Assembly (NCBI RefSeq): GCF_008271695.1
Contig: NZ_VKKY01000003.1
Coordinates: forward strand, 1,302,001-1,366,000
Direction of reading: 5' to 3'
DNA from: Rufibacter hautae
GTDB taxonomy: Bacteria > Bacteroidota > Bacteroidia > Cytophagales > Hymenobacteraceae
DNA length: 64,000 nt
Below, piece after piece: positions 21,758 to 46,155 of this stretch (position 1 is the first letter of the stretch; every line of letters begins with the position of its first letter). The translations under genes and the position numbers were made by a program. The notes beneath the pieces are model-generated. The model saw only the letters and a list, made by a program, of their open reading frames with translations. It did no database searches and was not told the origin of the DNA.

Positions 21758-22828
21758 CTAATCGGAAGCTTTTTCGTTTAGAGAATCTGCTTTCAGGGAA
21801 GATCCCCGGATGATCAGTTCTGGTTTAAGAACGGTTTTCTGAGGGACCAACTTCTCGTCTGGTGCGGTTTTGAAATGTTCAAAGAAGAGCTCGGCGGTGA
21901 TGCGGCCCATGGTCAAGCTGAACTGGTCCACGGTGGTAAGCGCCGGGTCTGAGAAAGAGGTGAACGGCTCATTCCCGAACCCCGCGATGGCGACTTGCTG
22001 CGGTACTTTGATCTTCCTTTCTTTGAGCACCTGCAGGGCACCCATGGCGCCGTAGTCTGAGGCCGAGAAAACCGCGTCGGGCATTTCCTTCAGCTGGAGC
22101 AGTTCCTCCATGCCGGAGCGGCCGTCTTCCAGTTGCAGGTTGCTCTTGATCACCAGTTCCTCATAGAAAGGCACGTCATAGTCCCGGAGGGCATCCATGT
22201 AGCCGCGCAGACGCTCCTTGAAAATGCTCACTTTCTTGGGGCTGGTGAAATGCGCAATGCGGCGGCAACCCTGCTGGATGAGGTGCTCCACTACTTTGTA
22301 GGCGCCCAGGTAATCGTCAATCATAACCTGGCTTACCTCCAGGGCATCGGTGGTGCGGTCAAACAGTACCAGCGGAATGCCTTTCTCCTGGGTGCGCTTG
22401 AAATGGTCAAAGTTCTCGGTGTTCTTGCCAATAGAGGCAATGATGCCATCCACGCGGGCGCTCAACAGGGCGTCAATGGTCTGCACTTCTTTCTCGTAGT
22501 TGTCATAGGACTGCGAGATGATCACTTTGTAGTTCAGTTTGTTCGCGATCTCCTCAATGCCGCGCACCACCGAGGCGAAGAACGCCCGGTCGGCGGTGGG
22601 CACGATGATACCGATGATGTAGCTTTTCCCATTCCTAAGGGCCGCCGCAATGTTGTTGGGCTGATAGTTCAGCTGTTTGGCAGCCTTCAATACCGCTTTT
22701 TTGGTCACCTCGCTGATGCGGGGGTTGTCGTTCAACGCCCGCGACACGGTAGAGGCCGTGATATTGAGTTTCTCCGCAATGTGGTGAATGGTCACCTTTG
22801 GTTTATTGGCCATTTTATTCGTTGCCAT
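21758..22828 (-). CDS. LacI-family transcriptional regulator of the pectin/uronate locus
   Basis: DNA-binding regulator with an N-terminal helix-turn-helix (VTIHHIAEKLNITASTVSRA, about residues 13-32), hinge helix YQPNNIAAALRNGKS (about 55-69) and a periplasmic-binding-protein-like effector domain (about 70-345). 356 aa; a second ATG five codons in is also possible. It lies between kduD (46 bp) and uxaB in the minus-strand catabolic run. Its likely operators are the five 16-bp CG-centred near-palindromes described at 24530, 24738, 37975, 45933 and 46140. The effector is unknown; KDG or an unsaturated digalacturonate would be natural guesses. Not close enough to any named regulator for a symbol. 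Confidence 0.92.
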   Translation of the reverse strand: MATNKMANKPKVTIHHIAEKLNITASTVSRALNDNPRISEVTKKAVLKAAKQLNYQPNNIAAALRNGKSYIIGIIVPTADRAFFASVVRGIEEIANKLNYKVIISQSYDNYEKEVQTIDALLSARVDGIIASIGKNTENFDHFKRTQEKGIPLVLFDRTTDALEVSQVMIDDYLGAYKVVEHLIQQGCRRIAHFTSPKKVSIFKERLRGYMDALRDYDVPFYEELVIKSNLQLEDGRSGMEELLQLKEMPDAVFSASDYGAMGALQVLKERKIKVPQQVAIAGFGNEPFTSFSDPALTTVDQFSLTMGRITAELFFEHFKTAPDEKLVPQKTVLKPELIIRGSSLKADSLNEKASD

Positions 22829-22874
22829 GTAGGTAGGTCAAAATCTACAACACTTTTCCTTCTTTCGCTAAGCG

Positions 22875-23663
22875 TTACCGCTCGTTGCTGGGTTTTCCGA
22901 TGGTGGCCAGAATGCCGCCGTCTACATATACAATCTGCCCGCTCACAAAATCGCTGGCTTTGCTGGCCAGGAAAATAGTGGCCCCCGCTAAATCCTCAGG
23001 GTCACCCCAGCGCCCGGCCGGAGTACGGTGGATGATGAACTCATTGAACGGATGCCCGTCTACCCTGATGGGAGCGGTTTGGTCGGTGGCAAAATACCCC
23101 GGCCCGATGCCGTTCACCTGCACGTTGTACCGGGCCCACTCGGTGGCCAGGTTCTTGGTGAGCATCTTCAGGCCGCCTTTGGCTGCCGCGTAGGCAGAAA
23201 CCGTGTCCCGGCCCAGTTCGCTCATCATGGAGCAGATGTTGATGATCTTGCCGGCCCGGCGCTCCACCATGTATTTGCCCACTGTTTTGGACATGATGAA
23301 CGGGCCGGTAAGGTCCACGTCCAGCACTTTCCTAAAATCGGCTACCTCCATCTCCAGGGCAGGGGTGCGCTGGATCATGCCGGCGTTGTTCACCAAGATG
23401 GCAATAGGCCCAACCTCCTGCTCAATACGCGCGATGTTCTCTTTGGCCAGTTCCTCGTTGGTGACATCGAATAAATAACCTTTCACGTCCAACCCCTGTT
23501 GGCGGTATTGCTCCAGGGCGCATTCCATCTTCTCCGGGGTATTGCCGTTCACCACCAGGGTGGCGCCTGCTTTGCCCAAAGCCGTCGCCATGGCCATTCC
23601 TAACCCATGGGTGGCACCCGTGACCAAAGCTACTTTGCCGGTTAAATCAAATAAATGGGTCAT
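22875..23663 (-). CDS. kduD: 2-keto-3-deoxygluconate 5-dehydrogenase (KduD-type SDR)
   Basis: Short-chain dehydrogenase reducing 2,5-diketo-3-deoxygluconate (3-deoxy-D-glycero-2,5-hexodiulosonate) to KDG. Cofactor motif TGATHGLG (about 15-22), NNAG (about 91-94) and catalytic Ser-Tyr-Lys with SAYAAAKGG at about 157-165. C-terminal FVSGQIVYVDGG. 262 aa. SDRs of this type are often annotated gluconate 5-dehydrogenase; the 6-bp spacing after kduI makes KduD the better name. Start codon ATG. Confidence 0.9.
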   Translation of the reverse strand: MTHLFDLTGKVALVTGATHGLGMAMATALGKAGATLVVNGNTPEKMECALEQYRQQGLDVKGYLFDVTNEELAKENIARIEQEVGPIAILVNNAGMIQRTPALEMEVADFRKVLDVDLTGPFIMSKTVGKYMVERRAGKIINICSMMSELGRDTVSAYAAAKGGLKMLTKNLATEWARYNVQVNGIGPGYFATDQTAPIRVDGHPFNEFIIHRTPAGRWGDPEDLAGATIFLASKASDFVSGQIVYVDGGILATIGKPSNER

Positions 23664-23669
23664 AAACGG

Positions 23670-24512
23670 CTATTTTAGTTCGGTGGTAGCTACTTTGTCC
23701 ATGTCGTTGTAATCCAGGTTCTCGCCGGCCATGCCCCAAATAAAGGTATAGTTAGACGTTCCGGCCCCCGAGTGGATGGACCAAGGTGGGGAGAGAACCG
23801 CCTGTTGGTTCTGCATCCAGATATGGCGGGTTTCCTGCGGCTCGCCCAGGAAGTGGCAAACGGTCTGGTCTTCTAGTACCTCAAAATAGAAATAGGCTTC
23901 CATTCTCCGGTCATGGGTGTGGGCGGGCATGGTGTTCCAGACGCTGCCGGTTTTCAGCTCCGTGATGCCCATCTGCAGTTGGCAGGTCTCCACCACGGAG
24001 TTGATCAACACCTTCCGGATGGTGCGGGCGTTGGCGGTCTCCAGGGAGCCCAGTTCCACGGTCTCGGCCTCGCTCAACTGCACCTTCTTGGTAGGATAGG
24101 TGTGGTGGGCGGGCGCGGAATTGAAGTAGAAGCGGGTGTCGGCGCCGTTAGGGGCCGGGTGGAACAGGACTTCCTTTACGCCCTTGCCTATGTATAAAGC
24201 CTCTTTGTTCTTCAGGGTGATCTCCTCGCCGTCTACCGTGATGGTGCTGTCTGAAGAGACGTTGATGATCCCGATCTCGCGCCGGTCCAGGAAGTTCTCA
24301 GACCGCAGGGTAGGGAAGGTGTCCAGCCGCACGGGGCCACTCACTGGGTGCACGCCGCCTACAATCAACCGGTCATATAAGGTATAAGTCAGTTGGATGG
24401 AATCTGCCTGGAAAAGATTCTCAATCAGGAAGTGCTCACGCAGTTTGGCGGTGTCATATCCCTTGAAATCATTGGGGTGGATGGCGTGCCGGGTGGATTG
24501 GTGGACAGTCAT
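23670..24512 (-). CDS. kduI: 5-keto-4-deoxyuronate isomerase
   Basis: Zinc cupin isomerase converting 5-keto-4-deoxyuronate, the product of pectate lyase and GH105 action, to 2,5-diketo-3-deoxygluconate. 280 aa, ATG start. Zinc ligands are visible in MPAHTHDRRMEAYFYF (His about 198 and 200, Glu about 205) and SIHSG (His about 247), matching the E. coli enzyme with an offset of two. First gene of the long minus-strand catabolic run. A candidate LacI operator lies 18 bp upstream of its start. Confidence 0.95.
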   Translation of the reverse strand: MTVHQSTRHAIHPNDFKGYDTAKLREHFLIENLFQADSIQLTYTLYDRLIVGGVHPVSGPVRLDTFPTLRSENFLDRREIGIINVSSDSTITVDGEEITLKNKEALYIGKGVKEVLFHPAPNGADTRFYFNSAPAHHTYPTKKVQLSEAETVELGSLETANARTIRKVLINSVVETCQLQMGITELKTGSVWNTMPAHTHDRRMEAYFYFEVLEDQTVCHFLGEPQETRHIWMQNQQAVLSPPWSIHSGAGTSNYTFIWGMAGENLDYNDMDKVATTELK

Positions 24513-24529
24513 AAAGTAGGGGTGCTAGG

Positions 24530-24545
24530 TGTAATCGTTTGCGCA
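24530..24545. promoter_or_regulatory. Candidate LacI-type operator, site a (kduI)
   Basis: TGTAATCGTTTGCGCA, centred on CG, 18 bp upstream of the kduI ATG. On the minus strand it overlaps a -7-like TAATTTG. It shares the pattern TG(C/T)AA(A/T)CG-NTTG with four other sites in the window. Confidence 0.65.
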
Positions 24546-24707
24546 AATTACGAATTTATCAATCTGTTAGGCTATGTTGGGCCAGAAAAATATTCGGGCT
24601 GTAGAATTCAGTCCGTTGTAACCTTCTGCTAACATAATAAAAATATGTTAATCAAAAGCGGTTTTAGTGGGTGTATTTAGAAAACTGTTAAAAAATAGGC
24701 AATATTT

Positions 24708-24739
24708 TTTGGGTTTGTTTTTAAATAGTGTTAAATATG
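24708..24739 (+). promoter_or_regulatory. Candidate promoter of the first susC
   Basis: TTTG at 24708-24711, 20-base spacer, then TAAATATG at 24732-24739, close to TTTG-n20-TAnnTTTG. The last two bases of the -7 element are the first two of operator site b. The same arrangement recurs before the second susC. Confidence 0.45.
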
Positions 24740-24753
24740 CAATCGGTTGCGCA
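24738..24753. promoter_or_regulatory. Candidate LacI-type operator, site b (first susC)
   Basis: TGCAATCGGTTGCGCA, 65 bp before the susC ATG and immediately downstream of a -7-like box, so bound regulator would block the promoter. Confidence 0.7.
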
Positions 24754-24818
24754 GATTCAGGTCCGTAACTCATCCGCTTCGTATTTCTGTCATTTTATCA
24801 AAATCAAATTTCTCTCCC

Positions 24819-27800
24819 ATGCAACATGCATTACTTAAGAAGAGCCGGTATCTGCTGGTGCTGATTTTTTTCTTTACGGCCGCGGCCGGTGCCTTTGCTC
24901 AGACGGTTACCATCACTGGTAAAGTGACCGATGAGAAGAAAGAAGGCCTGCCCGGGGTAACGGTGCTCCTGAAGGGTACTACCACCGCCAACGCGACAGA
25001 CGTGAATGGGGAGTTTTCCCTTGCCGTGCCCAATGGCGCCGGCACGCTGGTGTTTTCCTACATCGGGTTTCTCTCCCAGGAAGTGCCTATCAATGGCCGG
25101 GCCTCTATCAACGTGGCCCTGGCCTCTGATTCAAAAGCGATTGAGGAAGTGGTAGTGGTAGGGTACGGCACGGTGCCCAGAAAGGAATTGACCGGATCAG
25201 TGGCCACCATCACGGCGAAAGACATCCAGGATATTCCGGTGAGTACTGCGGCAGAAGCGCTGGCCGGAAGATTGGCAGGGGTTCAGGTGACTTCCACGGA
25301 AGGCCAGCCCGGCGCTGAGATCCAGGTGCGGGTGCGCGGAGGCGGGTCCCTGACGCAGGATAACTCCCCGCTTTATATTGTAGACGGAATCCAGATGGAA
25401 AATGCCTTGTCTATCATCTCTCCCCAGGAAATTGAGTCGGTAGACGTGTTGAAAGACGCGGCTTCTACTTCTATCTATGGAGCCAGGGGTGCCAATGGCG
25501 TGGTGATCATCACTACCAAAGGGGGCAGGGAGCAGAAAACACAGGTGACGTACAACGGCTATGCCGGGGTAAGACGCATCGTGAACAAGCTGGAGGTGAT
25601 GAACCCGTATGACTATGCCCTGTACCAGTACGAGTCTTACAACCTGTTCAGCAACACCAATGATGAAAGCCGCACCTCTTTCAGGGACCGCTATGGCAGA
25701 TGGGAAGACCTGGATATCTATAAATCAATGCCCACCACCGACTGGCAGGACAAAGTGTTTGGGAGAGATGCCTTCAGTCAGACGCATGTGTTAGGCATCA
25801 CCGGAGGATCCAAAGAGACTTCCTTCAACTTTACGCTGAATCACGCCGACGAAAACGGCATCATGATCAACTCTGGTTATGTGAGAACCCTGGCATCTTT
25901 CAAGTTTGACCACAAGGTGACAGACCGGTTCAAGGTAGGGTTGACCACCCGCTACAGCCGCCAGCGAGTAGACGGCGTGGGTACGTCCAGCACGGGTTCG
26001 CAGAGCAATAACCGGTTAAGAAACGCGGTGCGCTACAGACCGTTCATCGCCCCAGGTTTTGAAAGCCAGGTAGATGAGTTTGACGTGGAATACGCCAGCA
26101 GCACCCAATTGACCAGTCCGGTTCTTTTGGCCAACAGCGAGGAAAGACGTGACTACCGCAATGACATCATCGTGAACGGTTATTTCAGCTATGACATCCT
26201 CAAGAACCTGACTTTTAGAACAGTAGTAGGGGTGAACGCCCTGGAAAGAAAAACCAATGCCTTCAGCGGTCCGGTTACGGCAGTGGCCAGACAGAACAAT
26301 GACCAACCTGTGGTAGACATGACGGCGGGTGAGGCTTTTTCCTTCACCAATACCAACACCTTAACCTATAAAACCAAAGTAGGGGAAGACCACAATCTTG
26401 ATTTCCTCTTAGGCCACGAGGTAGTACAGTGGGATAGCAAAAGCAGAGGCACCCGCACCAAATGGTTACCGTCTGACATCTCGCCCGACCAGGCGTTTGC
26501 AGGTATCCAGAAGGCGACGCCTCCTGCCGGCCTCATCCAAGACAACCCTACTACCTCTGAGTCTGGCACCCGTTTATTGTCCTTTTTTGGAAGAGCAGGC
26601 TATAACTACAAAGGCAGGTATTTCGCCAACTTCAACCTGAGACGGGACGGTTCCTCTCTGTTTGCCGATGGCAACCGCTACGGTACTTTCCCCTCGGCGT
26701 CTATCATGTGGCGCGTAGCCGATGAAGCCTTCATGGCACCTTTTGAGGGATGGTTGAGTGACCTGAAAGTTCGCCTTAGCGTGGGTTCTGTGGGCAACAA
26801 CCGCATCGGGGTGGATTTATACAGAACAATGTACACCGCCAGCTCTACAGAAGGGTACGCCTTCACGGAGTCTATCACCCCGGGTTACGTAGCGCCTACG
26901 CTGGCCAACCCGAACCTGGTATGGGAAACCACCCTGTCCAAAAACGCGGGCGTTGATTTCGCTTTCTTCAATAACAGATTGACCGGTTCCATTGACGCTT
27001 ACCAGAATAGAACCAGAGACCTTCTTTTAGAAGCTACTATTCCGCAAACCAGCGGCTACAGAACGCAGCTCCAGAACATTGGCGAAACCGAGAACAAAGG
27101 GATTGAACTCCAGTTGGGTGCCGTAGTGGTGGACAAAGGCGATTTCAGATGGAATTCTAATTTCAACATTGCCTTAAACCGGAACAAGATTGTGAGTCTG
27201 GGTCTGGATCCATCGGGGCAGCCGAAGAGTTCTTATTTGGTGCAGTCGGGTTGGGTGAATTCCCTGGAAGACTTCAAGGTAGAAGTGGGCCAGCCGGTAG
27301 GGCAGTTCTATGGCTATGTGACCGACGGCTACTATACCGTGGATGATTTTAACGCCACTTTCAACGCCACTACCAATACCTGGACCTATGTGCTGAAAGA
27401 AGGAGTAGCCAACAGTTCCAGCGTGGCGCTGGGCAACAGACAGCCGCAGCCCGGTGACCTGAAGCTGAAAGACCTCACCGATAACAACAGCTCCCTCATC
27501 TCCACCGCAGACCGGACGGTTATTGGCAATGCCCAACCAAAATTCACCGGTGGTTTCAACCAGCAGTTCTCCTACAAAGGGTTTGACCTGAGTGTTTTCA
27601 TGGTGTTTTCCTATGGCAACAAAGTATACAACGCGAATAAAATGGAGTTCACCACCCAGTACACCACCCGTGACAACAACATGCTGGCCCTCATGAATGA
27701 TCGGTTCAAACTATATGACGAAAACGGGCAGATGGTTTCTGATCCTGAGAAGCTAAGAGCCTTGAACGCCAACGCCAAATACTGGAGACCATCTTTAGGC

Positions 27801-28082
27801 AACTACTTCACACATTCTTTCGCCATTGAAGACGGATCGTTCCTTAGAATCAGCAACCTGACCCTGGGCTACAGCATTCCGGAGTCCATCCTGAAAAGAA
27901 CACGGGTTATCTCCAAGTTAAGGGTTTACGGCACTGTGAATAACCTGTACACCTTCACCAAATACACCGGTTATGACCCAGAGGCCAACACCAGAAGAAA
28001 TTCGCCTCTTACGCCTAGCGTAGACTACGCCGCCTATCCGCGCAGCAGATACATTCTGGGTGGTATCAATGTTACTTTCTAA
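24819..28082 (+). CDS. SusC/RagA-type TonB-dependent outer-membrane receptor (locus 1)
   Basis: Outer-membrane oligosaccharide importer of the pectin locus. The ATG at 24819 (1087 aa) starts on a Sec signal (LLVLIFFFTAAAGAFA-Q); the earlier ATG at 24747 overlaps the operator region. Domains: carboxypeptidase-regulatory-like domain (about 30-105, VTITGKVTDEKKEGLPGVTV), plug with EEVVVVGYGTVPRKELTGSV (about 113-132) and YIVDGIQME, then a 22-strand beta-barrel ending GGINVTF. Forms a complex with the SusD protein encoded 18 bp downstream. Pectin oligosaccharide specificity is inferred from neighbours. Confidence 0.95.
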   Translation: MQHALLKKSRYLLVLIFFFTAAAGAFAQTVTITGKVTDEKKEGLPGVTVLLKGTTTANATDVNGEFSLAVPNGAGTLVFSYIGFLSQEVPINGRASINVALASDSKAIEEVVVVGYGTVPRKELTGSVATITAKDIQDIPVSTAAEALAGRLAGVQVTSTEGQPGAEIQVRVRGGGSLTQDNSPLYIVDGIQMENALSIISPQEIESVDVLKDAASTSIYGARGANGVVIITTKGGREQKTQVTYNGYAGVRRIVNKLEVMNPYDYALYQYESYNLFSNTNDESRTSFRDRYGRWEDLDIYKSMPTTDWQDKVFGRDAFSQTHVLGITGGSKETSFNFTLNHADENGIMINSGYVRTLASFKFDHKVTDRFKVGLTTRYSRQRVDGVGTSSTGSQSNNRLRNAVRYRPFIAPGFESQVDEFDVEYASSTQLTSPVLLANSEERRDYRNDIIVNGYFSYDILKNLTFRTVVGVNALERKTNAFSGPVTAVARQNNDQPVVDMTAGEAFSFTNTNTLTYKTKVGEDHNLDFLLGHEVVQWDSKSRGTRTKWLPSDISPDQAFAGIQKATPPAGLIQDNPTTSESGTRLLSFFGRAGYNYKGRYFANFNLRRDGSSLFADGNRYGTFPSASIMWRVADEAFMAPFEGWLSDLKVRLSVGSVGNNRIGVDLYRTMYTASSTEGYAFTESITPGYVAPTLANPNLVWETTLSKNAGVDFAFFNNRLTGSIDAYQNRTRDLLLEATIPQTSGYRTQLQNIGETENKGIELQLGAVVVDKGDFRWNSNFNIALNRNKIVSLGLDPSGQPKSSYLVQSGWVNSLEDFKVEVGQPVGQFYGYVTDGYYTVDDFNATFNATTNTWTYVLKEGVANSSSVALGNRQPQPGDLKLKDLTDNNSSLISTADRTVIGNAQPKFTGGFNQQFSYKGFDLSVFMVFSYGNKVYNANKMEFTTQYTTRDNNMLALMNDRFKLYDENGQMVSDPEKLRALNANAKYWRPSLGNYFTHSFAIEDGSFLRISNLTLGYSIPESILKRTRVISKLRVYGTVNNLYTFTKYTGYDPEANTRRNSPLTPSVDYAAYPRSRYILGGINVTF

Positions 28083-28100
28083 TTTTTGAGAAGAACAGCA

Positions 28101-29942
28101 ATGAAAAGAAATATCCTAAAAAGTTTTATCATACCACTTGCCATAGGCAGTTTGGTGACCGTAAGTTCTTGTGAGAACTACCTGGAGGTTCAGAATCCGT
28201 CTACGCTTTCCCAGGATGCCATCTTCAGCAGTCTGGCCTTTACAGAATCTGCCATCACGGGTGTCTACAACCAATTACCCGGCGATGACGGTTACGGAAG
28301 CCGTATCTCTACGCTTTTCCCCAATGGTTCTGATGATTTTAAAATGGGCGGAGACCATGACCCCATTGCCCGGGGCGGTATTTCCCACTTTGGGGTAAGC
28401 CCGGGTTTCACAGACTTGGAGAACCCATTCCTGCAATTGTACAGAGGCATTGAGCGGGCCAACATCTGTATCAAATACATTCCGCTTTCTGCCTTGTACA
28501 CCAGCGGCACCGCCACTGAGCAGGCTACCATGCGCCGGTTCTACGGAGAGGCGCTTACTCTAAGGGCCCAGTTCTACCACGAGTTGATCAGGAACTGGGG
28601 TGATGTGCCGGCCCAATTTGAGCCATCGGCAGATACCCCGGACCTGTTCCTGCCTAAGACCAACCAGGATGAAATCTATGACAAACTGCTGGCCGATTTA
28701 GCCATGGCCGCAGACTTGGTTCCGTGGAGGTCAGAATCTGGCGCACCCACTACCAGGGTGACCAAAGGTGCGGTGAAAGGTCTGAGAGCCAGAATAGCCT
28801 TGGCCCGTGGCGGGTACGCCTTGAGAAGAGAAAGCGGTATAGTAGAGCGCCGTGCCAACTACAAAGACTTCTATCAGATTGCCAGAACCGAGGCTTGGGA
28901 AGTGATCCAAAGCAAACAGCACGCCTTGAACCCAAGCTATGAGAACGTGTTCAGAAGCCTGCACGGCAACGGCGTTACAGACGCCACCTATGAGCATGTG
29001 TGGCAGGTAGGCGCCTTCGGCGGGAATGCCAGAACAGATACTAAACTGGGATTTGGAAACGGGCCAAGAATTGCCGAGGCCAGTACCTATGGTAGAGCGA
29101 ATGGTCTTTCTGAAGCGGTACCCACGTATTTCTATGAGTTCGACTCTATCGGGGATTCAAGAAGAGACGTGACCTTGGCTTACTTCCAGGTAGATACCAA
29201 AGCCAATAACGACAATAAGTTATTGACCACCCCGCTCTTGATGAGAGAAGGCAAGTTCAGAAAATACTGGACCAGCATTGCCGGTACAAACCAGACCCTG
29301 GGCATCAACTGGCCGCTCATCCGCTATGCCGATGTGCTGTTGATGTTCGCCGAGGCAGAGAACGAACTGAACGGACCTACCCCAGAAGCGAAGGCCGCCC
29401 TGGAGGAAGTAAGAAAAAGAGCTTTCTTGGATGACTATGAGGATAGAATGCCTGAGACGCCGTCTTCCAAAGAAGATTTCTTCAAAGCCCTGGTGCAGGA
29501 GCGCTACCTGGAGTTCGGTGGCGAGGGCGTGCGTAAGTATGACCTGATCCGCTGGGATCTGCTGGAAACCAGAATCAATGAGGTAAGAGCAGACTTACGG
29601 GCCATGATGACCGGTACCGGGCGTTATGCCAACGTGCCCCAGTATGTTTTCTACAAGCCAACCCCGCTGTTGGGACCAAGAGCCACCGCCCGCCAGGAAA
29701 TGCTGGATTACAATCTGTTTGGCGGCAACGTGAACAAGGTGATGTACGAACCTTCCACTACCACCACTGCGCCTGACGGTTATACCAGAATCAGTTGGGG
29801 AGCGGCAATCACCGAAGCACATATCACTGGTCCCACCAGAGGCTTTGCGAGCCAATTCAAAAAGAACCATTCTGAGCTGCTACCTATCTATAACGGGGTG
29901 CTAAGCCAAAACTATAGACTCACCCAGGACTACGGATACTAG
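28101..29942 (+). CDS. SusD/RagB-type surface glycan-binding lipoprotein (locus 1)
   Basis: Outer-membrane surface lipoprotein that caps the SusC barrel and captures oligosaccharides. The ATG at 28101 (613 aa) is chosen over a TTG at 28086. Lipobox in TVSSCENYLEVQNPSTLS (Cys about 24). Typical SusD TPR-like regions follow, with the C-terminal WPLIRYADVLLMFAEAENEL and ALVQERYLEFGGEGVRKYDLIRW. It follows susC by 18 bp and was presumably co-transcribed with it. Confidence 0.95.
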   Translation: MKRNILKSFIIPLAIGSLVTVSSCENYLEVQNPSTLSQDAIFSSLAFTESAITGVYNQLPGDDGYGSRISTLFPNGSDDFKMGGDHDPIARGGISHFGVSPGFTDLENPFLQLYRGIERANICIKYIPLSALYTSGTATEQATMRRFYGEALTLRAQFYHELIRNWGDVPAQFEPSADTPDLFLPKTNQDEIYDKLLADLAMAADLVPWRSESGAPTTRVTKGAVKGLRARIALARGGYALRRESGIVERRANYKDFYQIARTEAWEVIQSKQHALNPSYENVFRSLHGNGVTDATYEHVWQVGAFGGNARTDTKLGFGNGPRIAEASTYGRANGLSEAVPTYFYEFDSIGDSRRDVTLAYFQVDTKANNDNKLLTTPLLMREGKFRKYWTSIAGTNQTLGINWPLIRYADVLLMFAEAENELNGPTPEAKAALEEVRKRAFLDDYEDRMPETPSSKEDFFKALVQERYLEFGGEGVRKYDLIRWDLLETRINEVRADLRAMMTGTGRYANVPQYVFYKPTPLLGPRATARQEMLDYNLFGGNVNKVMYEPSTTTTAPDGYTRISWGAAITEAHITGPTRGFASQFKKNHSELLPIYNGVLSQNYRLTQDYGY

Positions 29943-29982
29943 AGGTAGCCTTACTTGACAGAACTTAAGAAAAGAAACACAC

Positions 29983-36925: not shown

Positions 36926-36933
36926 GCATTCGC

Positions 36934-37914
36934 ATGAACCTGAGAAAACCTTTTCTGTTGCTTGTTTTCCTGTGCTGCACCGCATTGTTCGCGCAGGCGC
37001 AGAAGTATGATTTTGTGGTGGCCAAAGACGGCAGCGGTACCTTCAAGACGGTGCAGGAAGCCATCAACGCCGTGCCTGATTTCCGCAAGAACGTCACCAC
37101 CATTTACATCAAGAACGGCACCTACAAAGAGAAACTGACTTTGCCTAGCACCAAAACCGCGGTGCGCATGATTGGCGAGGACGTGAAGAAAACCATCCTC
37201 ACTTTTGACGATTACGCGGCCAAGAAGAACCGGTTCGGGGAGGAGATGGGTACTACCGGCTCTACCAGTTTCTTTGTGTACGGCGATGATTTCACCGCTG
37301 AGAACATCACCTTTGAGAACTCCTCCGGTCCGGTTGGGCAAGCCGTGGCCGTGCGCGTGGACGGTGACAAGGTCATGTTCCAGAACTGCCGCTTCCTGGG
37401 TTTCCAGGACACGCTCTACCCGCACGGCGAGAAAAGCCGCCAGTACTACAAGAACTGCTACATTGAGGGCACCACGGATTTCATCTTCGGGTGGTCTACG
37501 GCCGTGTTTGAGAACTGCGAGATTTTCAGCAAAAAAGGCGGAAACTTTGTGACGGCCGCTTCCACGCTGGAAGGTGCGCCTTACGGTTTCGTGTTTTTGA
37601 ACTGCCGCCTCACAGGCGATGCCCCGGAGAAGTCCTACTACCTGGGCCGCCCCTGGAGACCTTTCGCCAAGACGGTGTTCCTCAACACGTATTTAGGAAA
37701 ACACATCAGACCCGAGGGTTGGCACAACTGGAGCAAACCAGAGGCCGAGAAACAGGTGCTTTATGCGGAGTACAACTCCACCGGTCCGGGCGCAGCCAAG
37801 ACGGACCGCGTGAAATGGTCCAAACAACTGACGGAGCAGGAAGCCCAGCAATACACTTTGAAAAACATCTTCGGGGACTGGACTCCGGGGCAACTGATCA
37901 CCGCAAATAAATAG
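36934..37914 (+). CDS. Pectin methylesterase, CE8 (second copy)
   Basis: Second pectin methylesterase, 326 aa, with Sec signal LLLVFLCCTALFAQA-QKY and no lipobox. Motifs: GQAVAVRVDGDKVMFQNC, GFQDTLYPHG (Asp about 158), GTTDFIFGWS (Asp about 180) and GRPWRPFAKTVFLNTYLG. Clearly homologous to the copy at 34676 along its whole length but with many substitutions, so an old duplication. It may differ in preference for block or random methylation. Co-transcribed with GH105. Confidence 0.93.
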   Translation: MNLRKPFLLLVFLCCTALFAQAQKYDFVVAKDGSGTFKTVQEAINAVPDFRKNVTTIYIKNGTYKEKLTLPSTKTAVRMIGEDVKKTILTFDDYAAKKNRFGEEMGTTGSTSFFVYGDDFTAENITFENSSGPVGQAVAVRVDGDKVMFQNCRFLGFQDTLYPHGEKSRQYYKNCYIEGTTDFIFGWSTAVFENCEIFSKKGGNFVTAASTLEGAPYGFVFLNCRLTGDAPEKSYYLGRPWRPFAKTVFLNTYLGKHIRPEGWHNWSKPEAEKQVLYAEYNSTGPGAAKTDRVKWSKQLTEQEAQQYTLKNIFGDWTPGQLITANK

Positions 37915-37974
37915 GTGAAGAAGAACCTGCACGCGGAGACTGGGAAAAGGAAGTTGATTTGAAGGGCCCTTAGG

Positions 37975-37990
37975 TGCAAACGATTGCATC
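37975..37990. promoter_or_regulatory. Candidate LacI-type operator, site c (PL1-T9SS gene)
   Basis: TGCAAACGATTGCATC, 88 bp upstream of the PL1-T9SS ATG and followed immediately by a palindromic element. Its presence implies a separate regulated promoter inside the plus-strand gene series. Confidence 0.65.
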
Positions 37991-37992
37991 AA

Positions 37993-38030
37993 TGTTTTTG
38001 GGCTGTTTTGAAGAAATCAGCTCGGAAACA
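37993..38030. repeat. Palindromic intergenic element, copy 16
   Basis: Arms TGTTTTTGGGCTGTTTTG and GAAATCAGCTCGGAAACA, starting two bases after operator site c. Confidence 0.55.
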
Positions 38031-38077
38031 ACTTACAGAACGACAACGCACATCTTCCCCTAGAAAGAGGTAAAACG

Positions 38078-39772
38078 ATGGTAAAGAAGCTACTCACATT
38101 GGCCCTGTTGGGATGTCTTGGAAGCCACCTGCAGGCGCAGCAACTGGCGTTCCCCGGGGCCGAAGGGTTTGGCCGCTACGCCACGGGCGGCAGGGGCGGA
38201 GCCGTGCTGGAGGTCACCAACCTGAATGACTCTGGGCCGGGTAGTTTAAGGTCCGCCATCAACGCCTCGGGTGCCAGAACAGTGGTGTTCCGGGTGTCCG
38301 GGACCATAGCACTGGCCTCTAACCTCACCATCAGGAACCCCAACCTCACCATTGCCGGCCAGACCGCGCCCGGTGACGGCATCGCCATAAAGAACTACCC
38401 GGTGAGCGTGGACGCTGATAACGTGATCGTGCGCTACCTTCGGTTCAGGATGGGCGATGAGGCACAGCAGGAAGGCGATGCGTTTGGGGGCCGTTTTCAC
38501 AAAAACATCATCGTAGACCATTGCTCCATGAGTTGGTCCACCGACGAGTGCTTGTCGTTCTACGCCAATGAGAATTTCACGCTGCAGTGGTGCATTATTT
38601 CCGAGAGCCTCCGCAACTCGGCGCATGCCAAAGGGGCGCACGGCTACGGCGGCATCTGGGGCGGCAAGAATGCCTCTTTCCACCATAATCTCATGGCGCA
38701 CCATGACAGCCGCAACCCAAGGCTGGGCGAGGAAGCCGGCAAAGCTTTCGCCCTCACGGATCTGGTGGATGTGCGCAACAACGTGTACTACAACTGGGCC
38801 AGCAACAGCATGTACGGCGGCGAGGCCATGAACGTAAACGTAGTCAACAACTACTACAAACCAGGGCCCGCCACGGCCAAGAAAGAGCGCATCTTCTCCA
38901 TCGATAAAAACAAGAACGAAGGCACCGAGGTGTATGACATCTGGGGCAAGTTCTACATTGACGGGAATTTTGTGGAGGGCAGCACCCGCGCCACCAATGA
39001 CAACTGGACCTACGGCGTGTTCAACCAATTTCACAGCAGCTATGGCACCATTTCAGACGCGGACAAAGCCGCGATGAAACGCAGCGCTCCGCATCCTATT
39101 CAGAACAACGTGACCACGCATTCCGCCGAGGAAGCCTACGAACTGGTCATGAACAAAGCCGGTGCCTCCCTGAAACGCGATGCCGTGGATACCCGCATCA
39201 TCAATACGGTTAGTAATAAAACCTTTACCGCCTCGGGTTCCAACGGCAGCACCAACGGTATCATTGACAGTCAGAACGATGTAGGCGGCTGGCCCACGTT
39301 AGCCTCTCTGTCCGCTCCCGAGGACACCGACAAAGACGGTATGCCCAACGCCTGGGAAATCCAGAAAGGCCTGAACCCCAACAACGCCGAGGACCGCAAC
39401 GGCGACGGCAACAACGATGGCTACACCAACCTGGAAGAATACCTGAACAGCCTGGTGTCTACGGGCAACCTGACCAGTTCCCCAGAGGGCAAAAAGACAG
39501 GTTCTACCCAACTGCACCCCAATCCATTTTCTGCGTCTACCAAAGTAGCTTTCACAGCGAAGCAAAAGGGTCAGGCACTGGTGAAAGTGACCAACGCCGC
39601 TGGCGAGACCGTGGCTACTTTGCTCAACGCCTCGGTGGGTTCGGGGGCCCACTCCCTTATCTGGAGCGGCACCGACCAAAGCGGAAGCAAACTGCCCAGC
39701 GGCATGTACTTTGTCTCAGTACAGGTAGGAAATGAAAAAGAAACGAAGCGGGTGGCGCTTCTAAGAGATTAA
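38078..39772 (+). CDS. Pectate lyase, PL1-like, with T9SS C-terminal sorting domain
   Basis: Secreted pectate lyase exported by the type IX system and either released or attached to the surface. Sec signal MVKKLLTLALLGCLGSHLQA. The catalytic beta-helix (about 22-440) parallels the lipoprotein lyase at 33256: AFPGAEGFGRYATGGRGG, YLRFRMGDEAQQEGDAFGG, VDHCSMSWSTDECLSFYA, SRNPRLGEE. A calcium-binding-like segment DTDKDGMPNAWEIQKG follows. The last 75 residues are a T9SS type A sorting domain (LHPNPFSASTKVAF, SGTDQSGSKLPSGMYFVSV). 564 aa. Its own operator suggests separate control from the upstream genes. Confidence 0.92.
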   Translation: MVKKLLTLALLGCLGSHLQAQQLAFPGAEGFGRYATGGRGGAVLEVTNLNDSGPGSLRSAINASGARTVVFRVSGTIALASNLTIRNPNLTIAGQTAPGDGIAIKNYPVSVDADNVIVRYLRFRMGDEAQQEGDAFGGRFHKNIIVDHCSMSWSTDECLSFYANENFTLQWCIISESLRNSAHAKGAHGYGGIWGGKNASFHHNLMAHHDSRNPRLGEEAGKAFALTDLVDVRNNVYYNWASNSMYGGEAMNVNVVNNYYKPGPATAKKERIFSIDKNKNEGTEVYDIWGKFYIDGNFVEGSTRATNDNWTYGVFNQFHSSYGTISDADKAAMKRSAPHPIQNNVTTHSAEEAYELVMNKAGASLKRDAVDTRIINTVSNKTFTASGSNGSTNGIIDSQNDVGGWPTLASLSAPEDTDKDGMPNAWEIQKGLNPNNAEDRNGDGNNDGYTNLEEYLNSLVSTGNLTSSPEGKKTGSTQLHPNPFSASTKVAFTAKQKGQALVKVTNAAGETVATLLNASVGSGAHSLIWSGTDQSGSKLPSGMYFVSVQVGNEKETKRVALLRD

Positions 39773-39808
39773 TCAAGCTGTACCTTTCGGTACTTAACAC
39801 GTAAGCAG

Positions 39809-41494: not shown

Positions 41495-41502
41495 GAGAGA
41501 GC

Positions 41503-41545
41503 CTTTGTTTTAGGGCTGTTTTCCTTAAAGCAAGCAGAAAACAAA
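41503..41545. repeat. Palindromic intergenic element, copy 17
   Basis: Extended copy with arms CTTTGTTTTAGGGCTGTTTTC and AGCAGAAAACAAA, after the GH43 stop. Confidence 0.6.
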
Positions 41546-41602
41546 ATACAGGAAGCTCCTCTGCGGAGCCATCACCAGAAGTTAAAGAGTAAATATACCA
41601 TC

Positions 41603-43360
41603 ATGAAGAATGTAGCAAAGAGCAGGTTTTTATTGGCTTTGGGACTGGCGAGCGCGTTTCAGTTCTCCTGTCAACGTCAATCCTCAGCCCCGGCGGCCAG
41701 TGCCCCCGCAGCCCCCGCTGAAACCACCACTGGGCGTAATTTCTCCAGCGCCAGCGTAGCCGCTACTATTTACGAGGGCATTGAGTTTGACATGCCCAAA
41801 GTGAAAGAAACCAAGTTCCCCAACTACAGCGTGCCCATCACCAAGTACGGCGCGGTGGGCGACGGCATCACCAAAAACACGCAGGCCTTTGAGCAGGCCA
41901 TCAATGACGTGGCGGCCAAAGGAGGCGGACACGTGATCATTCCGCGCGGTTTGTGGCTCACCGGGCCCATCGTGCTGAAAAGCAATATTGATCTGCACGC
42001 TGAGGCTGGTTCCATGGTCATTTTCAGCCGTGATTTCAATGACTATCCCTTGATCAAAACCAGCTTCGAGGGGCTGGATACGTACCGCTGCCAGTCGCCT
42101 ATTTCGGGCATGAACCTGGAGAACGTGGCCATCACCGGTGAGGGTACGTTTGACGGAAACGGTGATGCCTGGCGTCCGGTGAAGAAAAGCAAGATGACTG
42201 ATGCGCAGTGGAAAACCTTGACCAAAACCGGGGTGCTGAGCGATGACGGGAAGACCTGGTACCCCACCGAGAAGTCTAAGAAAGCCGATGCCAAAGACAA
42301 CTTTAACGTGCCCAACTTTAAAACGAAGGAAGAGTTTGAGGCCGTGAAAGACTACCTGCGCCCCGTGTTGCTGAGTCTGGTGAACTGCAAAACCGTGCTT
42401 CTGGATGGACCTACCTTTCAGAACTCTCCGGCCTGGAACCTTCATCCGCTCATGTGCCAGGACATCATCCTGCGCAACCTGAACGTGCGCAACCCCTGGT
42501 ACTCGCAGAACGGCGACGGCCTGGACCTGGAGTCCTGCAAAAACGCGCTGGTCTACAACAACACCTTTGACGTAGGCGACGATGCCATCTGTGTGAAATC
42601 CGGGAAAGACGAAGACGGCCGCAGAAGAGGCGTGCCTACTGAGAACGTGATCGTGAAAAACAACGTGGTGTACCACGGCCACGGCGGTTTTGTGGTGGGC
42701 AGTGAGATGTCTGGCGGCGTGAAAAACGTGCACGTGTCTAACTGTACCTTTATGGGCACCGACATCGGGTTGCGTTTCAAGAGCACGCGCGGCCGGGGCG
42801 GCGTGGTAGAGAACATCTGGATCTCTAACATTGACATGATCAATATTCCTACGCAAGCTATCAGCTTTAACCTTTTCTACGGCGGCAACTCGCCGGTGCT
42901 GGAAGAAGACCAGAAAGCCGGCACCGAGGCCCGAGTAGAGAAACCAGTGCCCGTAACCGAGAAAACGCCGTCGTTCAAAAACATCTGGATGCGCAACATC
43001 ACCGTCTCGGGGGCCGATGAAGCCGTGGCCTTGCAAGGTCTGCCCGAAATGAACCTGCAGAACGTGAACCTTGAGAACGCTTACCTGAAAGCCCGAAGAG
43101 GAATCTCGGCAGTGGATGCAACGGGCATCGCCCTGAAGAACGTGAAAGTAGTCACCGAGAAAGGTCCGGCCCTGACCATCCACAACAGCAAAGACATCAA
43201 CGTGCAGGGGCTTACCTTTAACCAGACAAATGAACCGGCGGTGAAAGTCCTGGGTCCCCTGACCAAAAACGTGAAGCTGAACAACAAAGACTTCACCAGC
43301 GCCGCCACCCAAATCTCCAAAGGCAAAGACCTGGGAAAAGCGGCGGTTTCCATGCAGTAA
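41603..43360 (+). CDS. GH28 polygalacturonase-family hydrolase, lipoprotein
   Basis: Right-handed beta-helix hydrolase of galacturonan or rhamnogalacturonan. Lipobox AFQFSCQRQSS (Cys about 23) followed by an Ala/Pro-rich linker. GH28 catalytic motifs in order: NGDGLDLES (about 301-309), GDDAICVKSGKDE (about 324-336), YHGHGGFVVGSEM (about 356-368) and LRFKSTRGRGG (about 390-400). 585 aa, longer than typical because of an insert at about 195-245 after the GEGTFDGNG motif. That insert is seen in exo-acting relatives, so exo activity is possible. ATG start. Confidence 0.92.
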   Translation: MKNVAKSRFLLALGLASAFQFSCQRQSSAPAASAPAAPAETTTGRNFSSASVAATIYEGIEFDMPKVKETKFPNYSVPITKYGAVGDGITKNTQAFEQAINDVAAKGGGHVIIPRGLWLTGPIVLKSNIDLHAEAGSMVIFSRDFNDYPLIKTSFEGLDTYRCQSPISGMNLENVAITGEGTFDGNGDAWRPVKKSKMTDAQWKTLTKTGVLSDDGKTWYPTEKSKKADAKDNFNVPNFKTKEEFEAVKDYLRPVLLSLVNCKTVLLDGPTFQNSPAWNLHPLMCQDIILRNLNVRNPWYSQNGDGLDLESCKNALVYNNTFDVGDDAICVKSGKDEDGRRRGVPTENVIVKNNVVYHGHGGFVVGSEMSGGVKNVHVSNCTFMGTDIGLRFKSTRGRGGVVENIWISNIDMINIPTQAISFNLFYGGNSPVLEEDQKAGTEARVEKPVPVTEKTPSFKNIWMRNITVSGADEAVALQGLPEMNLQNVNLENAYLKARRGISAVDATGIALKNVKVVTEKGPALTIHNSKDINVQGLTFNQTNEPAVKVLGPLTKNVKLNNKDFTSAATQISKGKDLGKAAVSMQ

Positions 43361-43367
43361 TTCATCA

Positions 43368-43398
43368 TGAAAAGGGCATGTGCAAGCGTGCCTTTTTT
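43368..43398 (+). terminator. Probable terminator after the GH28 gene
   Basis: Hairpin AAAAGGGCATG / CGTGCCTTTTTT with one bulged base and a terminal T-run, directly after the GH28 stop. A reading frame that starts with ATG at 43367 runs through it, but this is unlikely to be translated. Confidence 0.6.
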
Positions 43399-43431
43399 CC
43401 TGCCCTTTTCGCAAAAACAGCTTAAAAATAG
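43398..43431. repeat. Palindromic intergenic element, copy 18
   Basis: Arms TCCTGCCCTTTTCGC and AAAAACAGCTTAAAAATAG, ending 8 bp before the preferred CE12 start codon. Confidence 0.5.
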
Positions 43432-43438
43432 AACCTAC

Positions 43439-44230
43439 ATGCTGAGAAGATTATCCCTCTTTCTTTTCCTGGTGGGCTGCGTGGCGGCCATGTCGTTTGC
43501 CCCTTTCAAGAAGAACATCGTGCGCGTGTACCTCATCGGGGATTCCACCGTGGCCGATTATTCTGACTACGATGGCGAAGATTACCTGAACAAGCGCTAC
43601 CCGGTGATGGGTTGGGGCCAGATGTTCAAGCCGTTCCTCACGAAGGACAGTTTGGCCAAAGTAAAGCACCTCATCAAGGGAGACAGCGTCATCCTGCTGG
43701 ACAAAGCCCGGGGCGGCCGCAGCACGCGCACCTTTTTTGAGGAAGGCCGCTGGGCCGCCGTGTACAAAGACCTGAAGAAAAACGATGTAGTCATGATCCA
43801 GTTCGGCCACAATGATGCGGCGGTGGAGAAGACCGAGCGCTACGTGAACATCCAGGGCTACAAGGAATTTCTGCGCCTGTACGTGAACCAGACGCGTGAG
43901 AAAGGCGCGTATCCCATTCTGCTCACGCCCGTGGTCCGCAACTATCCCTGGAAAGACGGCAGAATCGGGAACGTGCACGGCGAGTACCCGCAGGCGGTGA
44001 AAGACGTGGCCAAAGAGTTGAACGTGCCTCTAATTGACCTGCAGCAGCTTTCCATTGATTCCTTTTCCCAGAAAGGGCAGGAGTTTGTGACCGCCAATTA
44101 CTTCATGAACCTACCTGCCGGCCAATACAAAAACTACCCCGAGGGGCAGAAAGACAACACCCACTTCCAACCCGAAGGGGCCAAAGAAGTAGCCCGCCTT
44201 GTGTTTCAAGGGATGAAGGCACTGAAGTAA
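43439..44230 (+). CDS. Rhamnogalacturonan acetylesterase, CE12 (first copy)
   Basis: SGNH-type esterase removing acetyl groups from rhamnogalacturonan-I. I choose the ATG at 43439 (263 aa) because it begins a normal signal peptide (MLRRLSLFLFLVGCVAAMSFA). The ATG at 43367 would add 24 residues encoded by a terminator and a repeat. Catalytic Ser in LIGDSTVAD (about 36), the oxyanion Gly in ARGGRSTRTF, Asn in QFGHNDAA (about 123), and Asp/His in KDNTHFQPEGA. Paralogue of 51318-52091. Last gene of the first locus, closed by a strong terminator. Confidence 0.92.
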   Translation: MLRRLSLFLFLVGCVAAMSFAPFKKNIVRVYLIGDSTVADYSDYDGEDYLNKRYPVMGWGQMFKPFLTKDSLAKVKHLIKGDSVILLDKARGGRSTRTFFEEGRWAAVYKDLKKNDVVMIQFGHNDAAVEKTERYVNIQGYKEFLRLYVNQTREKGAYPILLTPVVRNYPWKDGRIGNVHGEYPQAVKDVAKELNVPLIDLQQLSIDSFSQKGQEFVTANYFMNLPAGQYKNYPEGQKDNTHFQPEGAKEVARLVFQGMKALK

Positions 44231-44259
44231 AAATCGGTTGTAAATTGTTCTAAAGTCTT

Positions 44260-44309
44260 AAAAAACGAATCGGGGCTGTTTTCCAGAAAACAGCCCCGAT
44301 TCGTTTTTT
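44260..44309. terminator. Perfect 24-bp hairpin terminator (element copy 19)
   Basis: Arms 44260-44283 and 44286-44309 are exact reverse complements with a 2-base loop, ending in a T-run. The core CTGTTTTC/GAAAACAG is that of the palindromic element. It ends the plus-strand pectin series. Confidence 0.92.
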
Positions 44310-44591
44310 TGCTTTTAACTCCTTTAATCAGGAGCGAATAGCTATTGGTCCTTTTTGATATGGTCTACACGCATTCCGTCCCCCTTTGAAGGGGGTAGGG
44401 GGATGACAAAGGCCGATTGTAGAACCAAGTTGCCTTGCTTCATAGGGCAGACATCAATGGCGCTCCTCACCTAAGGGCAACTACAAGTGATTGCCTCTGC
44501 AGAACTTGGGAATGCCATGATCAGCACGAGCAATCATCCCCCTACCCCCTTCAAAGGGGGACGTAATGCGTGAGGCTGCCTTAAAACCAAA
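44310..44591. other. Intergenic region with a nested repeat element
   Basis: Part of the 428-bp gap between the CE12 and esterase genes. It holds the inverted-repeat element at 44368-44572 and no credible gene or promoter. Confidence 0.6.
44368..44572. mobile_element. MITE-like inverted-repeat element (CCCCCTTTGAAGGGGG type)
   Basis: The 40-bp arms 44368-44407 and 44533-44572 are reverse complements with two mismatches. Each arm contains its own hairpin CCCCCTTTGAAGGGGG. The 125-bp interior contains, at 44473-44507, a decayed copy of the GGGCAA arm seen at 7436-7463 including its flank ACTTG. No coding capacity. Confidence 0.65.
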
Positions 44592-44640
44592 GAAAAGCAT
44601 TTAGGGGCTGTTTTCTGTAAAACAGCCCTAAATGCTTTTC
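44592..44640. terminator. Hairpin terminator of the esterase gene (element copy 20)
   Basis: 22-bp stem GAAAAGCATTTAGGG / CCCTAAATGCTTTTC plus the element core CTGTTTT/AAAACAG, with one bulged G. It lies 19 bp after the esterase stop on the minus strand. Confidence 0.85.
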
Positions 44641-44658
44641 AACTTTCAAAAGATTTGA

Positions 44659-45657
44659 TTACGCCTTCTTCTTCGGTGCATAAACTTTCTTCAGGAAAGT
44701 GTCAATGTACTTCACCATGGGCTCAAACCAAGGATCAAAGAGAGGGAAGGTATGCGGGGAATCAGGGAAAGTATGCACCTCTGAGTAGATTTGGTGTTGA
44801 TCCAGGATCTTCCGGAAATCGTCGCGGCCGGCGTGCATGCGATCTACTGAGCTGTTGATGAACAGGAAGGGCGGTGCGGTAGGGCCTACTTGGTTCAAGG
44901 GCGAGGCTTCCTCCCACAGGGCGATCTTCTCCTTTTTAGGATACCCAAACCAGTACGTAGCCGCCGAGATGCCTTTAGCGTCATTTCCCTCTCCTGACTC
45001 GGGGTGCACAAAGGAAAGCGTTCCGTCAATGTCTACCACTGCCTGCACCTGGCTGGATACTTTGGAAAGGCAATTTTCCCCTTCAAAGATTGGGTTCTTG
45101 TTGGTGGCCCCCAGAAGCGCCGCCAATTGTCCGCCTGCCGAAAAACCGAGGGCTGTGATTTTGGCCGTGTCCAGGTTGAATTGCTTCGCATTGGCCCGCA
45201 CCCAGCGCACCGCCGATTTCAGATCATGCACCGCAGCAGGGTAGAGGGCTTCGGTAGACAGGCGATACTCCACGGTAAAACAGGCGTAACCAAGATCGGC
45301 CAGACGTTGGGCCAGGGGAATATGCTGTTCGCGGTTTCCGCTGCGCCAACCGCCTCCGTGAATGAGCAGAATGGCCGGAGTGGGAGCCTTGGTTTTCTTC
45401 TTCGGGTAAAAAGCGTCTAAGGCCAGGTCTCGGTTCCCAACGCGGCAATACTTGATATCCCGTTTCTCCTGCACTGTGGGCAATTTAAATACCTCTACCA
45501 ATTTAAGATTCGCATTGGGGTGGTATTTCTTGGCCTGCCGGTAAGCACCCGGGTTGGAGAAGGAGGTGTCGCGTATTCTGGTCAGGCCAGTGGTCATTTG
45601 GGCCATGGCTGAACTTGCCGTAAAAAATAGCAGGAAGCCGAAGAGATGTTTTTTCAT
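44659..45657 (-). CDS. Secreted alpha/beta-hydrolase esterase (BD-FAE/acetyl xylan esterase-like)
   Basis: Serine esterase of the alpha/beta-hydrolase fold, probably a carbohydrate deacetylase. The ATG at 45657 starts directly on a Sec signal (MKKHLFGFLLFFTASSAMA); the ATG at 45669 adds four residues. Oxyanion motif LIHGGGWRSGN (about 98-108), nucleophile in ALGFSAGGQLAAL (Ser about 174), Asp in NSSVDRMHAG and His in PDSPHTFPLF near the C-terminus. About 332 aa. It lies alone on the minus strand between the two SusCD loci, with operator site d upstream, so it probably belongs to the pectin regulon. Confidence 0.85.
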   Translation of the reverse strand: MKKHLFGFLLFFTASSAMAQMTTGLTRIRDTSFSNPGAYRQAKKYHPNANLKLVEVFKLPTVQEKRDIKYCRVGNRDLALDAFYPKKKTKAPTPAILLIHGGGWRSGNREQHIPLAQRLADLGYACFTVEYRLSTEALYPAAVHDLKSAVRWVRANAKQFNLDTAKITALGFSAGGQLAALLGATNKNPIFEGENCLSKVSSQVQAVVDIDGTLSFVHPESGEGNDAKGISAATYWFGYPKKEKIALWEEASPLNQVGPTAPPFLFINSSVDRMHAGRDDFRKILDQHQIYSEVHTFPDSPHTFPLFDPWFEPMVKYIDTFLKKVYAPKKKA

Positions 45658-45780
45658 GCACAGGTTCATTTTGTATGGTTGAAGGTTAGTAACGGGCTAG
45701 GTAAGTGTTCGCCCATCTTAACCTGGTAAAAAGTGTTTTTTTAATGGAGTCCAAGGAAAGAATAGAAAAGTGCCAGACCT

Positions 45781-45818
45781 GTTTTTAGTGGTGTTTTTTG
45801 GAAACAAGCCTCAAAACT
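45781..45818. repeat. Palindromic intergenic element, copy 21
   Basis: Arms GTTTTTAGTGGTGTTTTTTG and GAAACAAGCCTCAAAAC. Confidence 0.55.
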
Positions 45819-45932
45819 TCTTTTCCCTTCCGTATCTATTCGGTTTTTCTGCTTCTTTCTTGAGGGTAATACTTCCTTGTTAAAAAGCATAGGGGTCTTG
45901 AGGTATAAATTTCATTATGTTAAACCAGGATG

Positions 45933-45948
45933 TGTAAACGTTTGCACT
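45933..45948. promoter_or_regulatory. Candidate LacI-type operator, site d
   Basis: TGTAAACGTTTGCACT, in the divergent gap about 275 bp upstream of the esterase start and 630 bp upstream of the second susC. Which gene it serves is unclear. Confidence 0.5.
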
Positions 45949-46109
45949 AAAAATAGGGATAGCTTTGATTTTGCCCTTCAGATTAGCGCAAGGAATACTA
46001 TTCTAAGTGGGCATTTTAATGCTCCTTCTGTAAACATAATGTCTAATGTAATGAATATATGACAAATAAACGCTTGTTTAAAAACGATGATTTAAAAAAT
46101 AAGAAAAAG

Positions 46110-46141
46110 CTTGTGTTTATTTTATTAAATCACTATCTATG
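46110..46141 (+). promoter_or_regulatory. Candidate promoter of the second susC
   Basis: CTTG at 46110-46113, 20-base spacer, TATCTATG at 46134-46141. The -7-like box runs directly into operator site e, as at the first susC. Confidence 0.4.
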
Positions 46142-46155
46142 CAATCGATTGTACA
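46140..46155. promoter_or_regulatory. Candidate LacI-type operator, site e (second susC)
   Basis: TGCAATCGATTGTACA, the most symmetric of the five sites, abutting the -7-like TATCTATG. A weaker match, CCCAATCGTTTGTTAG, lies at 46182-46197, 42 bp downstream (about four helical turns). Confidence 0.65.

Follow-up and report, generated by a model that had tools for sequence, protein, structure and literature searches.

A 64,000-nucleotide stretch of the Rufibacter hautae genome (contig NZ_VKKY01000003.1, positions 1,302,001 to 1,366,000; here, the window) contains two SusCD systems, secreted pectin enzymes, and genes of uronate catabolism, and a CG-centred near-palindrome recurs beside them. Judged from sequence, these sites very probably serve as operators for a LacI-family protein, the product of positions 21758 to 22828 of the window, which is predicted to repress its own gene together with genes for importing and depolymerising pectin and for catabolising uronates. 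The sites are nearly exclusive to pectin and uronate genes within this genome, and both the sites and their placement are conserved together with the regulator. The original prediction had put both SusCD loci and the uronate genes under this one regulator, which is supported by the clustering of the sites, their conserved promoters, and the few matches in genomes lacking the protein.

All five sites initially proposed are present in the window as 14-mers beginning at 24530, 24738, 37975, 45933, and 46140. They lie, as had been described, by kduI, susC1, a pectate-lyase-like gene with a type IX secretion system (T9SS) tail, an esterase gene, and susC2 (gene starts at 24512, 24819, 38078, 45669, and 46467, respectively). 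The near-palindrome centred on CG stood up to analysis, with the correction that the consensus is better written as the 18-bp palindrome TGTGCAATCGATTGCACA than as 16 bp. The list of five was also incomplete, with further sites outside the window at C3:1371771 and C3:1377264 (C, G, and L numbers denote contigs, genomes, and loci). Site 45933 is 264 bp and site 46140 is 314 bp away from the closest gene start, so the target of the former is assigned only provisionally.

We wrote the motif TGYAAWCGNTTGYR from the five window sites and scanned the whole genome (5.84 Mb, 8 contigs, with the window at C3:1302001-1366000). Seven of the eight exact matches fall within 51 kb (C3:1326530-1377277), and two of these seven lie outside the window and were not used in writing the motif; the scatter that would have spoken against a pectin regulon was not seen. 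One of the two, at C3:1377264, precedes by 19 bp the start of uxaA, a gene before which enrichment had been expected; the gene product has altronate/galactarate dehydratase domains, and the start was set by the 548-amino-acid form in relatives. The other, at C3:1371771, is ~140 bp before a gene of 132 amino acids, whose counterpart in G027 is glyoxalase-like and which is followed by a GDSL gene resembling the pectin acetylesterase PaeY, with a score short of the model's cut-off. Because a patatin gene starts ~440 bp to the other side, the target of this site is likewise only presumed. The eighth match is within a 638-amino-acid coding frame. We rejected a wider motif, YGYAAWCGNTTRCR, which added only two sites of a paralogous regulator (C1:1220082 and C1:1220300) and a susD-internal site (C2:1666103) and missed the site at 46140, whose sequence its limits do not cover.

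A weight matrix built from the seven sites was used to scan 98 kb of contiguous sequence. The seven sites score 23.4 to 28.6 bits, and the next-best place scores only 10.4 bits. The rest of the window thus contains nothing comparable, in agreement with the initial impression of the hut, ppc, and signalling regions. Ten order-1 Markov sequences of equal length yielded a mean of 0.9 places at ≥12 bits. This test is partly circular, as the same seven sites built the matrix, a circularity from which the genome scan and the comparisons with relatives are free.

We assessed conservation in 15 other genomes drawn from the genus, to which one genome named Sabulibacter ruber is also assigned. An orthologue of the regulator with 85 to 95% identity occurs in 13 of the 15, hereafter carriers. 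In each carrier, a susC gene diverges from kduI, kduD, lacI, uxaB, and uxaC, and kduI, susC1, and the start of uxaA each have an exact site. In G054, the susC-side site at its usual place has decayed, and the exact site is found ~0.3 kb before susC1. Across 30 aligned kduI-upstream regions (the window, 13 of the genus, and 16 of Pontibacter), both intergenic sites are 95% identical to the window versus 51% for the whole region; orthologous loci in related genera, a proposed check, thus keep the sites at the corresponding promoters. The two noncarriers are G017, in which none of the neighbouring genes of the locus were found near the best LacI and the whole genome holds one exact match, and G051 (Rufibacter sp. 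SYSU D00344; L228, L169), in which only the last 76 residues of lacI are left and uxaB is truncated. G051 retains kduI, kduD, uxaC, and the kinase, aldolase, and transporter genes, a case in which the regulator was partly lost in nature. A search for uxaA, repeated with two positive-control genomes, did not find it in G017 or G051.

Orthologues also occur in Pontibacter, Belliella, Chryseolinea, and others. Counting strand matches, in which palindromic sites count on both strands, we found 83 exact matches in the 13 carriers of the genus (control, 24) and 176 in 21 Pontibacter carriers (control, 35; 8.4 versus 1.7 per genome). A first set of 16 Pontibacter noncarriers, biased because it took those with at most one LacI match, contains 27 (control, 33). 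With 13 noncarriers bearing other LacI genes added later, all 29 contain 62, or 2.1 each (control, 1.3), compared with 8.4 in carriers. A site with at most one mismatch lies within 460 bp upstream of kduI, or of lacI if kduI is missing, in 49 of 51 loci (14 of the genus, 20 of Pontibacter, and 17 others), and the remaining two have a site ~0.7 kb from lacI. The pairing of site and regulator extends to other families: among 38 further loci, 26 from Belliella's family and 12 from another family of the phylum, 35 have an upstream site. Three Belliella species occur both among these 38 loci and among the 51. Four Pontibacter loci (L117, L124, L125, and L130), which fall outside the 30-region alignment for want of kduI, have neither kduI nor kduD beside lacI; in every one of them a site stands at a greater distance upstream of lacI, and L117 has two, separated by 204 bp. 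That a site stays upstream of lacI even without kduI and kduD links the motif to this regulator.

Several observations weigh against the proposed assignment. The motif is the common LacI-family consensus, and the sites are operators predicted from sequence. Allowing up to one mismatch yields 70 strand matches in the genome versus 55 for a reversed control, such that weaker sites are indistinguishable from background. The 13 later-added Pontibacter noncarriers contain 35 exact matches against a control of 4, an excess that would fit the use of overlapping motifs by other LacI proteins. The kduI operator persists in G051 despite the 76-residue lacI remnant, and no site was found in 3 of the 38 distant loci (L233, L256, and L265, the last a short stretch). 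Finally, exact sites in relatives also stand before xylan or unrelated genes, before other lacI genes, or within coding frames.

These last sites emerged from 40 stretches that we examined around matches in the genus, leaving out three matches of the noncarriers G051 and G017. Besides those at uxaA, some precede pectate-lyase-like genes (G027, G042, two in G048, and G006 at 575 bp), pectinesterases (G032 and G012), and further susC genes (G027 and G042). Others precede genes for GH10 (G057), a glucuronoyl esterase (G037), GH95 (G054), and GH43/GH2 (G027), proteins identifiable only by a T9SS tail (G048 and G054), a MotA/ExbB-type gene (G012), and other lacI genes (G054, G042, and G037). Five matches are within coding frames, and a few are near genes left without identification. 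The G060 site precedes a gene pair with lengths like those of the GH95 pair in G054. The regulon core is tight, and its edge is blurred by the motifs of other LacI proteins. The sequence TGCAATCGGTTGCA occurs by the GH10 gene (L189, G057:C2) and near the glucuronoyl-esterase gene (L217, G037:C4), which may point to a xylan regulon under a different LacI protein with a near-identical operator. At a different LacI locus (L203, G054:C38), three perfect TGCAAACGTTTGCA palindromes at a lacI, a short-chain dehydrogenase/reductase (SDR) gene, and a susC probably represent a separate SusCD regulon.

The regulator itself is an ordinary LacI-family member. As first read from the sequence, it lies inside the locus, and Pfam identifies an N-terminal helix-turn-helix (HTH; PF00356, 52 bits) and a periplasmic-binding-protein-like domain (PF13377, 110.9 bits), both above cut-off. 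Its closest PDB structures are CcpA and PurR, which share its domain order but differ in genes and effectors; the PurR operator is nearly the same palindrome as the Rufibacter motif. The operator directly follows a TAnnTTG element at kduI and uxaA and overlaps a TAnnTATG element at susC1 and susC2, elements that resemble the Bacteroidetes -7 element. A protein bound there would block transcription, making repression relieved by a pathway intermediate the likeliest mode of action. We infer that a dimer would bind the 18-bp CG-centred palindrome and, without pectin, would repress both SusCD systems, the secreted lyase, the esterase, the pathway from uronates to 2-keto-3-deoxygluconate (KDG), and its own gene. 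Operator 1 would control kduI-kduD-lacI-uxaB-uxaC-kinase-aldolase-MFS, which lie in this order on the minus strand. The regulator would be released by a pathway product, most likely KDG or a uronate intermediate close to it; KDG is the foremost candidate because the controlled catabolic steps lead to it. The earlier argument from CG-centred palindromes is in keeping with the even, CG-centred form described as a rule for LacI-family operators (PMC4052901), which the sites share.

The SusCD systems could instead be mainly under hybrid two-component systems (HTCS) or sigma/anti-sigma pairs and only be tuned by the LacI protein. Such control is described as usual for SusCD systems in Bacteroides, where dual control of a SusCD operon is also described (PMC3878776). 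We consider this arrangement rather unlikely here, as no HTCS or sigma/anti-sigma pair was found among the 29 window proteins scanned with Pfam, the genome elsewhere not having been searched.

Less probable still is that the regulator is an activator or dual-acting rather than a plain repressor. Some LacI-family proteins act as activators, and the sites at the esterase and susC2 are ~260 to 310 bp from the gene starts. Against this, the downstream side of the operator abuts or overlaps a -7-like element at kduI, uxaA, susC1, and susC2.

The sites could also be bound by another of the seven LacI-family proteins that the genome encodes, or by several jointly. Paralogues are similar in HTH sequence, motif-matching sites lie beside a lacI of 46 to 47% identity in G042 and G037, three such sites occur in a G054 locus with a lacI of 34% identity, and noncarriers retain some excess matches. 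Two paralogues, however, are accompanied by operators that differ from the motif: a pair of CGTAATCGATTACG sites spaced by 218 bp lies beside the gene at C1:1220303 (C1:1220082 and C1:1220300; L229, L230), and TGAAACCGATTTCA and TGCAACCGATTTCA, 276 bp apart, accompany that at C2:325126 (L035). In the 1.5-kb flanks of the other four, a scan allowing one mismatch found no site. The site also tracks the lacI gene of the window across genera, and binding by a paralogue is thereby weakened to an improbable explanation. The twin operators of the two paralogues, with their differing half-sites, could help in reading the code that relates HTH to operator.

Chance matches to a generic LacI-family consensus, which has a central CG in 1173 of the 1303 LacI regulators of one study (PMC4052901), can be rejected, being contradicted by the 7/8 clustering, the 95% versus 51% conservation footprint, and recurrence at the same promoters, including uxaA in 13/13 carriers.

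Coordinates and support for the predicted operators and the genes of the locus (window positions)
Feature	Position	Strand	Remarks
Operator 1	24530..24543	-	17 bp before kduI; exact match; 95% conserved, 30 aligned genomes
Operator 2	24738..24751	+	67 bp before susC1; exact match; 95% conserved, 30 aligned genomes
Operator 3	37975..37988	+	89 bp before pectate-lyase-like gene with T9SS tail; exact match; also before orthologue in G027, G042
Operator 4	45933..45946	-	beside BD-FAE-like esterase (start 45669, 264 bp off); exact match
Operator 5	46140..46153	+	313-314 bp before susC2; exact match; also before orthologue in G027
LacI-family regulator	21758..22828	-	third gene of kduI operon; Pfam LacI HTH and sugar-binding domains
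kduI, 5-dehydro-4-deoxy-D-glucuronate isomerase	23670..24512	-	NCBIfam PRK00924 above cut-off
kduD-like SDR dehydrogenase	22875..23663	-	NCBIfam gluconate 5-dehydrogenase above cut-off; KduD models below theirs
uxaB, tagaturonate reductase	20146..21570	-	NCBIfam PRK03643 above cut-off
uxaC, uronate isomerase	18611..20008	-	Pfam UxaC
PfkB-family sugar kinase, probably KDG kinase	17579..18607	-	NCBIfam matches below cut-off
KDPG/KHG-type aldolase	16930..17610	-	NCBIfam below cut-off
Major facilitator superfamily (MFS) transporter	15516..16916	-	domain search
susC1	24819..28082	+	Pfam plug and carboxypeptidase-like domains; ATG at 24819
susD1	28086..29942	+	Pfam SusD
Pectate-lyase-like protein with T9SS tail	38078..39772	+	PDB 9buj pectate lyase, E 5e-74
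BD-FAE-like esterase	44659..45669	-	domain search
susC2	46467..49673	+	domain search
susD2	49704..51215	+	domain search

For the pectate-lyase-like protein, the Pfam scan returned the T9SS tail and no lyase match. Counterparts of operator 4 are found beside the esterase orthologue in G027, and sites also lie beside the esterase in G022 and G063.

The operators within the kduI-susC1 intergenic region form a twin pair 208 bp apart (24530/24738), and the esterase/susC2 pair (45933/46140) is 207 bp apart. Twin spacing is 207 to 209 bp in all 14 loci of the genus (standard deviation [sd] 0.5), while neighbouring gaps vary (lacI-uxaB, 50 to 195, sd 52; uxaB-uxaC, 108 to 167, sd 18) and the spacers share a mean ungapped identity of 60% (55 equal-length pairs). 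This constancy poses the question of looping between divergent promoters: a loop between phased operators would seal the kduI and susC1 promoters, such that import and catabolism switch as one, an arrangement kept across families and repeated at esterase/susC2. We regard this model as doubtful. The kduI-to-susC1 distance is equally constant (337 to 342 in 13 of 14 loci), and the whole intergenic region may therefore simply resist insertions and deletions. Read by eye, the C-terminus of the regulator has no obvious leucine heptad or tetramerisation helix. Spacing in Pontibacter is 204 to 211 bp in 10 loci, 208 in L121, and 239 in L131, L114, L115, L118, and L120, and other lineages range from 112 to 239 bp (L098-L110, L112-L131, L150-L165, and L232-L269 surveyed). 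A 10.5-bp phase was detected post hoc among 13 hand-chosen lineage values (Rayleigh p ~0.009). Later lineages gave a one-sided p of ~0.035 with 10 genus-level values and ~0.075 when merged to 7; this set excludes loci without a clear pair and two values used in the first set, Belliella (189) and G333 (177), and it fits 10.8 bp slightly better than 10.5. Helical phasing is thus suggestive, but the lineages are not independent. When the window's two twin intergenic regions were compared for homology, their alignment score beat 200 base shuffles, and 3 of 18 comparisons with real AT-rich stretches, drawn from only 9 candidates, also reach it.

Comparable regulons are predicted in Bacteroides, where the LacI-family regulators KdgR (BT0487), UxaR (BT0824), and UxuR control galacturonate, glucuronate, or KDG catabolism (PMC3878776, PMC4052901). 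The likeness is one of role: operators before uronate catabolic genes, the trait of the KdgR/UxaR type, are found at kduI and uxaA in this genome and in all 13 carriers of the genus. A difference from those regulons is that the Rufibacter operators also occur at both SusCD systems and secreted pectin enzymes. The ManR and AraR regulons of B. thetaiotaomicron similarly join cytoplasmic sugar catabolism to SusCD-type import under one regulator, with ManR spanning SusCD, but ManR is of the GntR family and serves mannosides, and AraR is of the NrtR family and serves arabinose (PMC3878776). UxuR2 of Algoriphagus marincola, also of the LacI family, is predicted to regulate loci for galacturonate and glucuronate in a Bacteroidetes species outside Bacteroides; its loci differ in having a tripartite ATP-independent periplasmic (TRAP) transporter and GH109, and the section describing them does not mention SusCD or pectin enzymes (PMC5507952). 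A pectin locus with kduI and kduD is described in Gramella flava (PMC5306329). In the literature searched, with few subscription journals covered, we found no account of such a regulon for Rufibacter, Pontibacter, or Cytophagales, the nearest being UxuR2 (PMC5507952).

The kind of regulon is thus familiar, and the present well-conserved and well-supported case extends it to secreted pectin enzymes and a pair of SusCD systems. One predicted repressor is thereby linked to import across the outer membrane, to secreted enzymes, and to the central catabolism of uronates. For Rufibacter, Pontibacter, and related bacteria, this provides a testable regulon of pectin use with a motif that can be applied.

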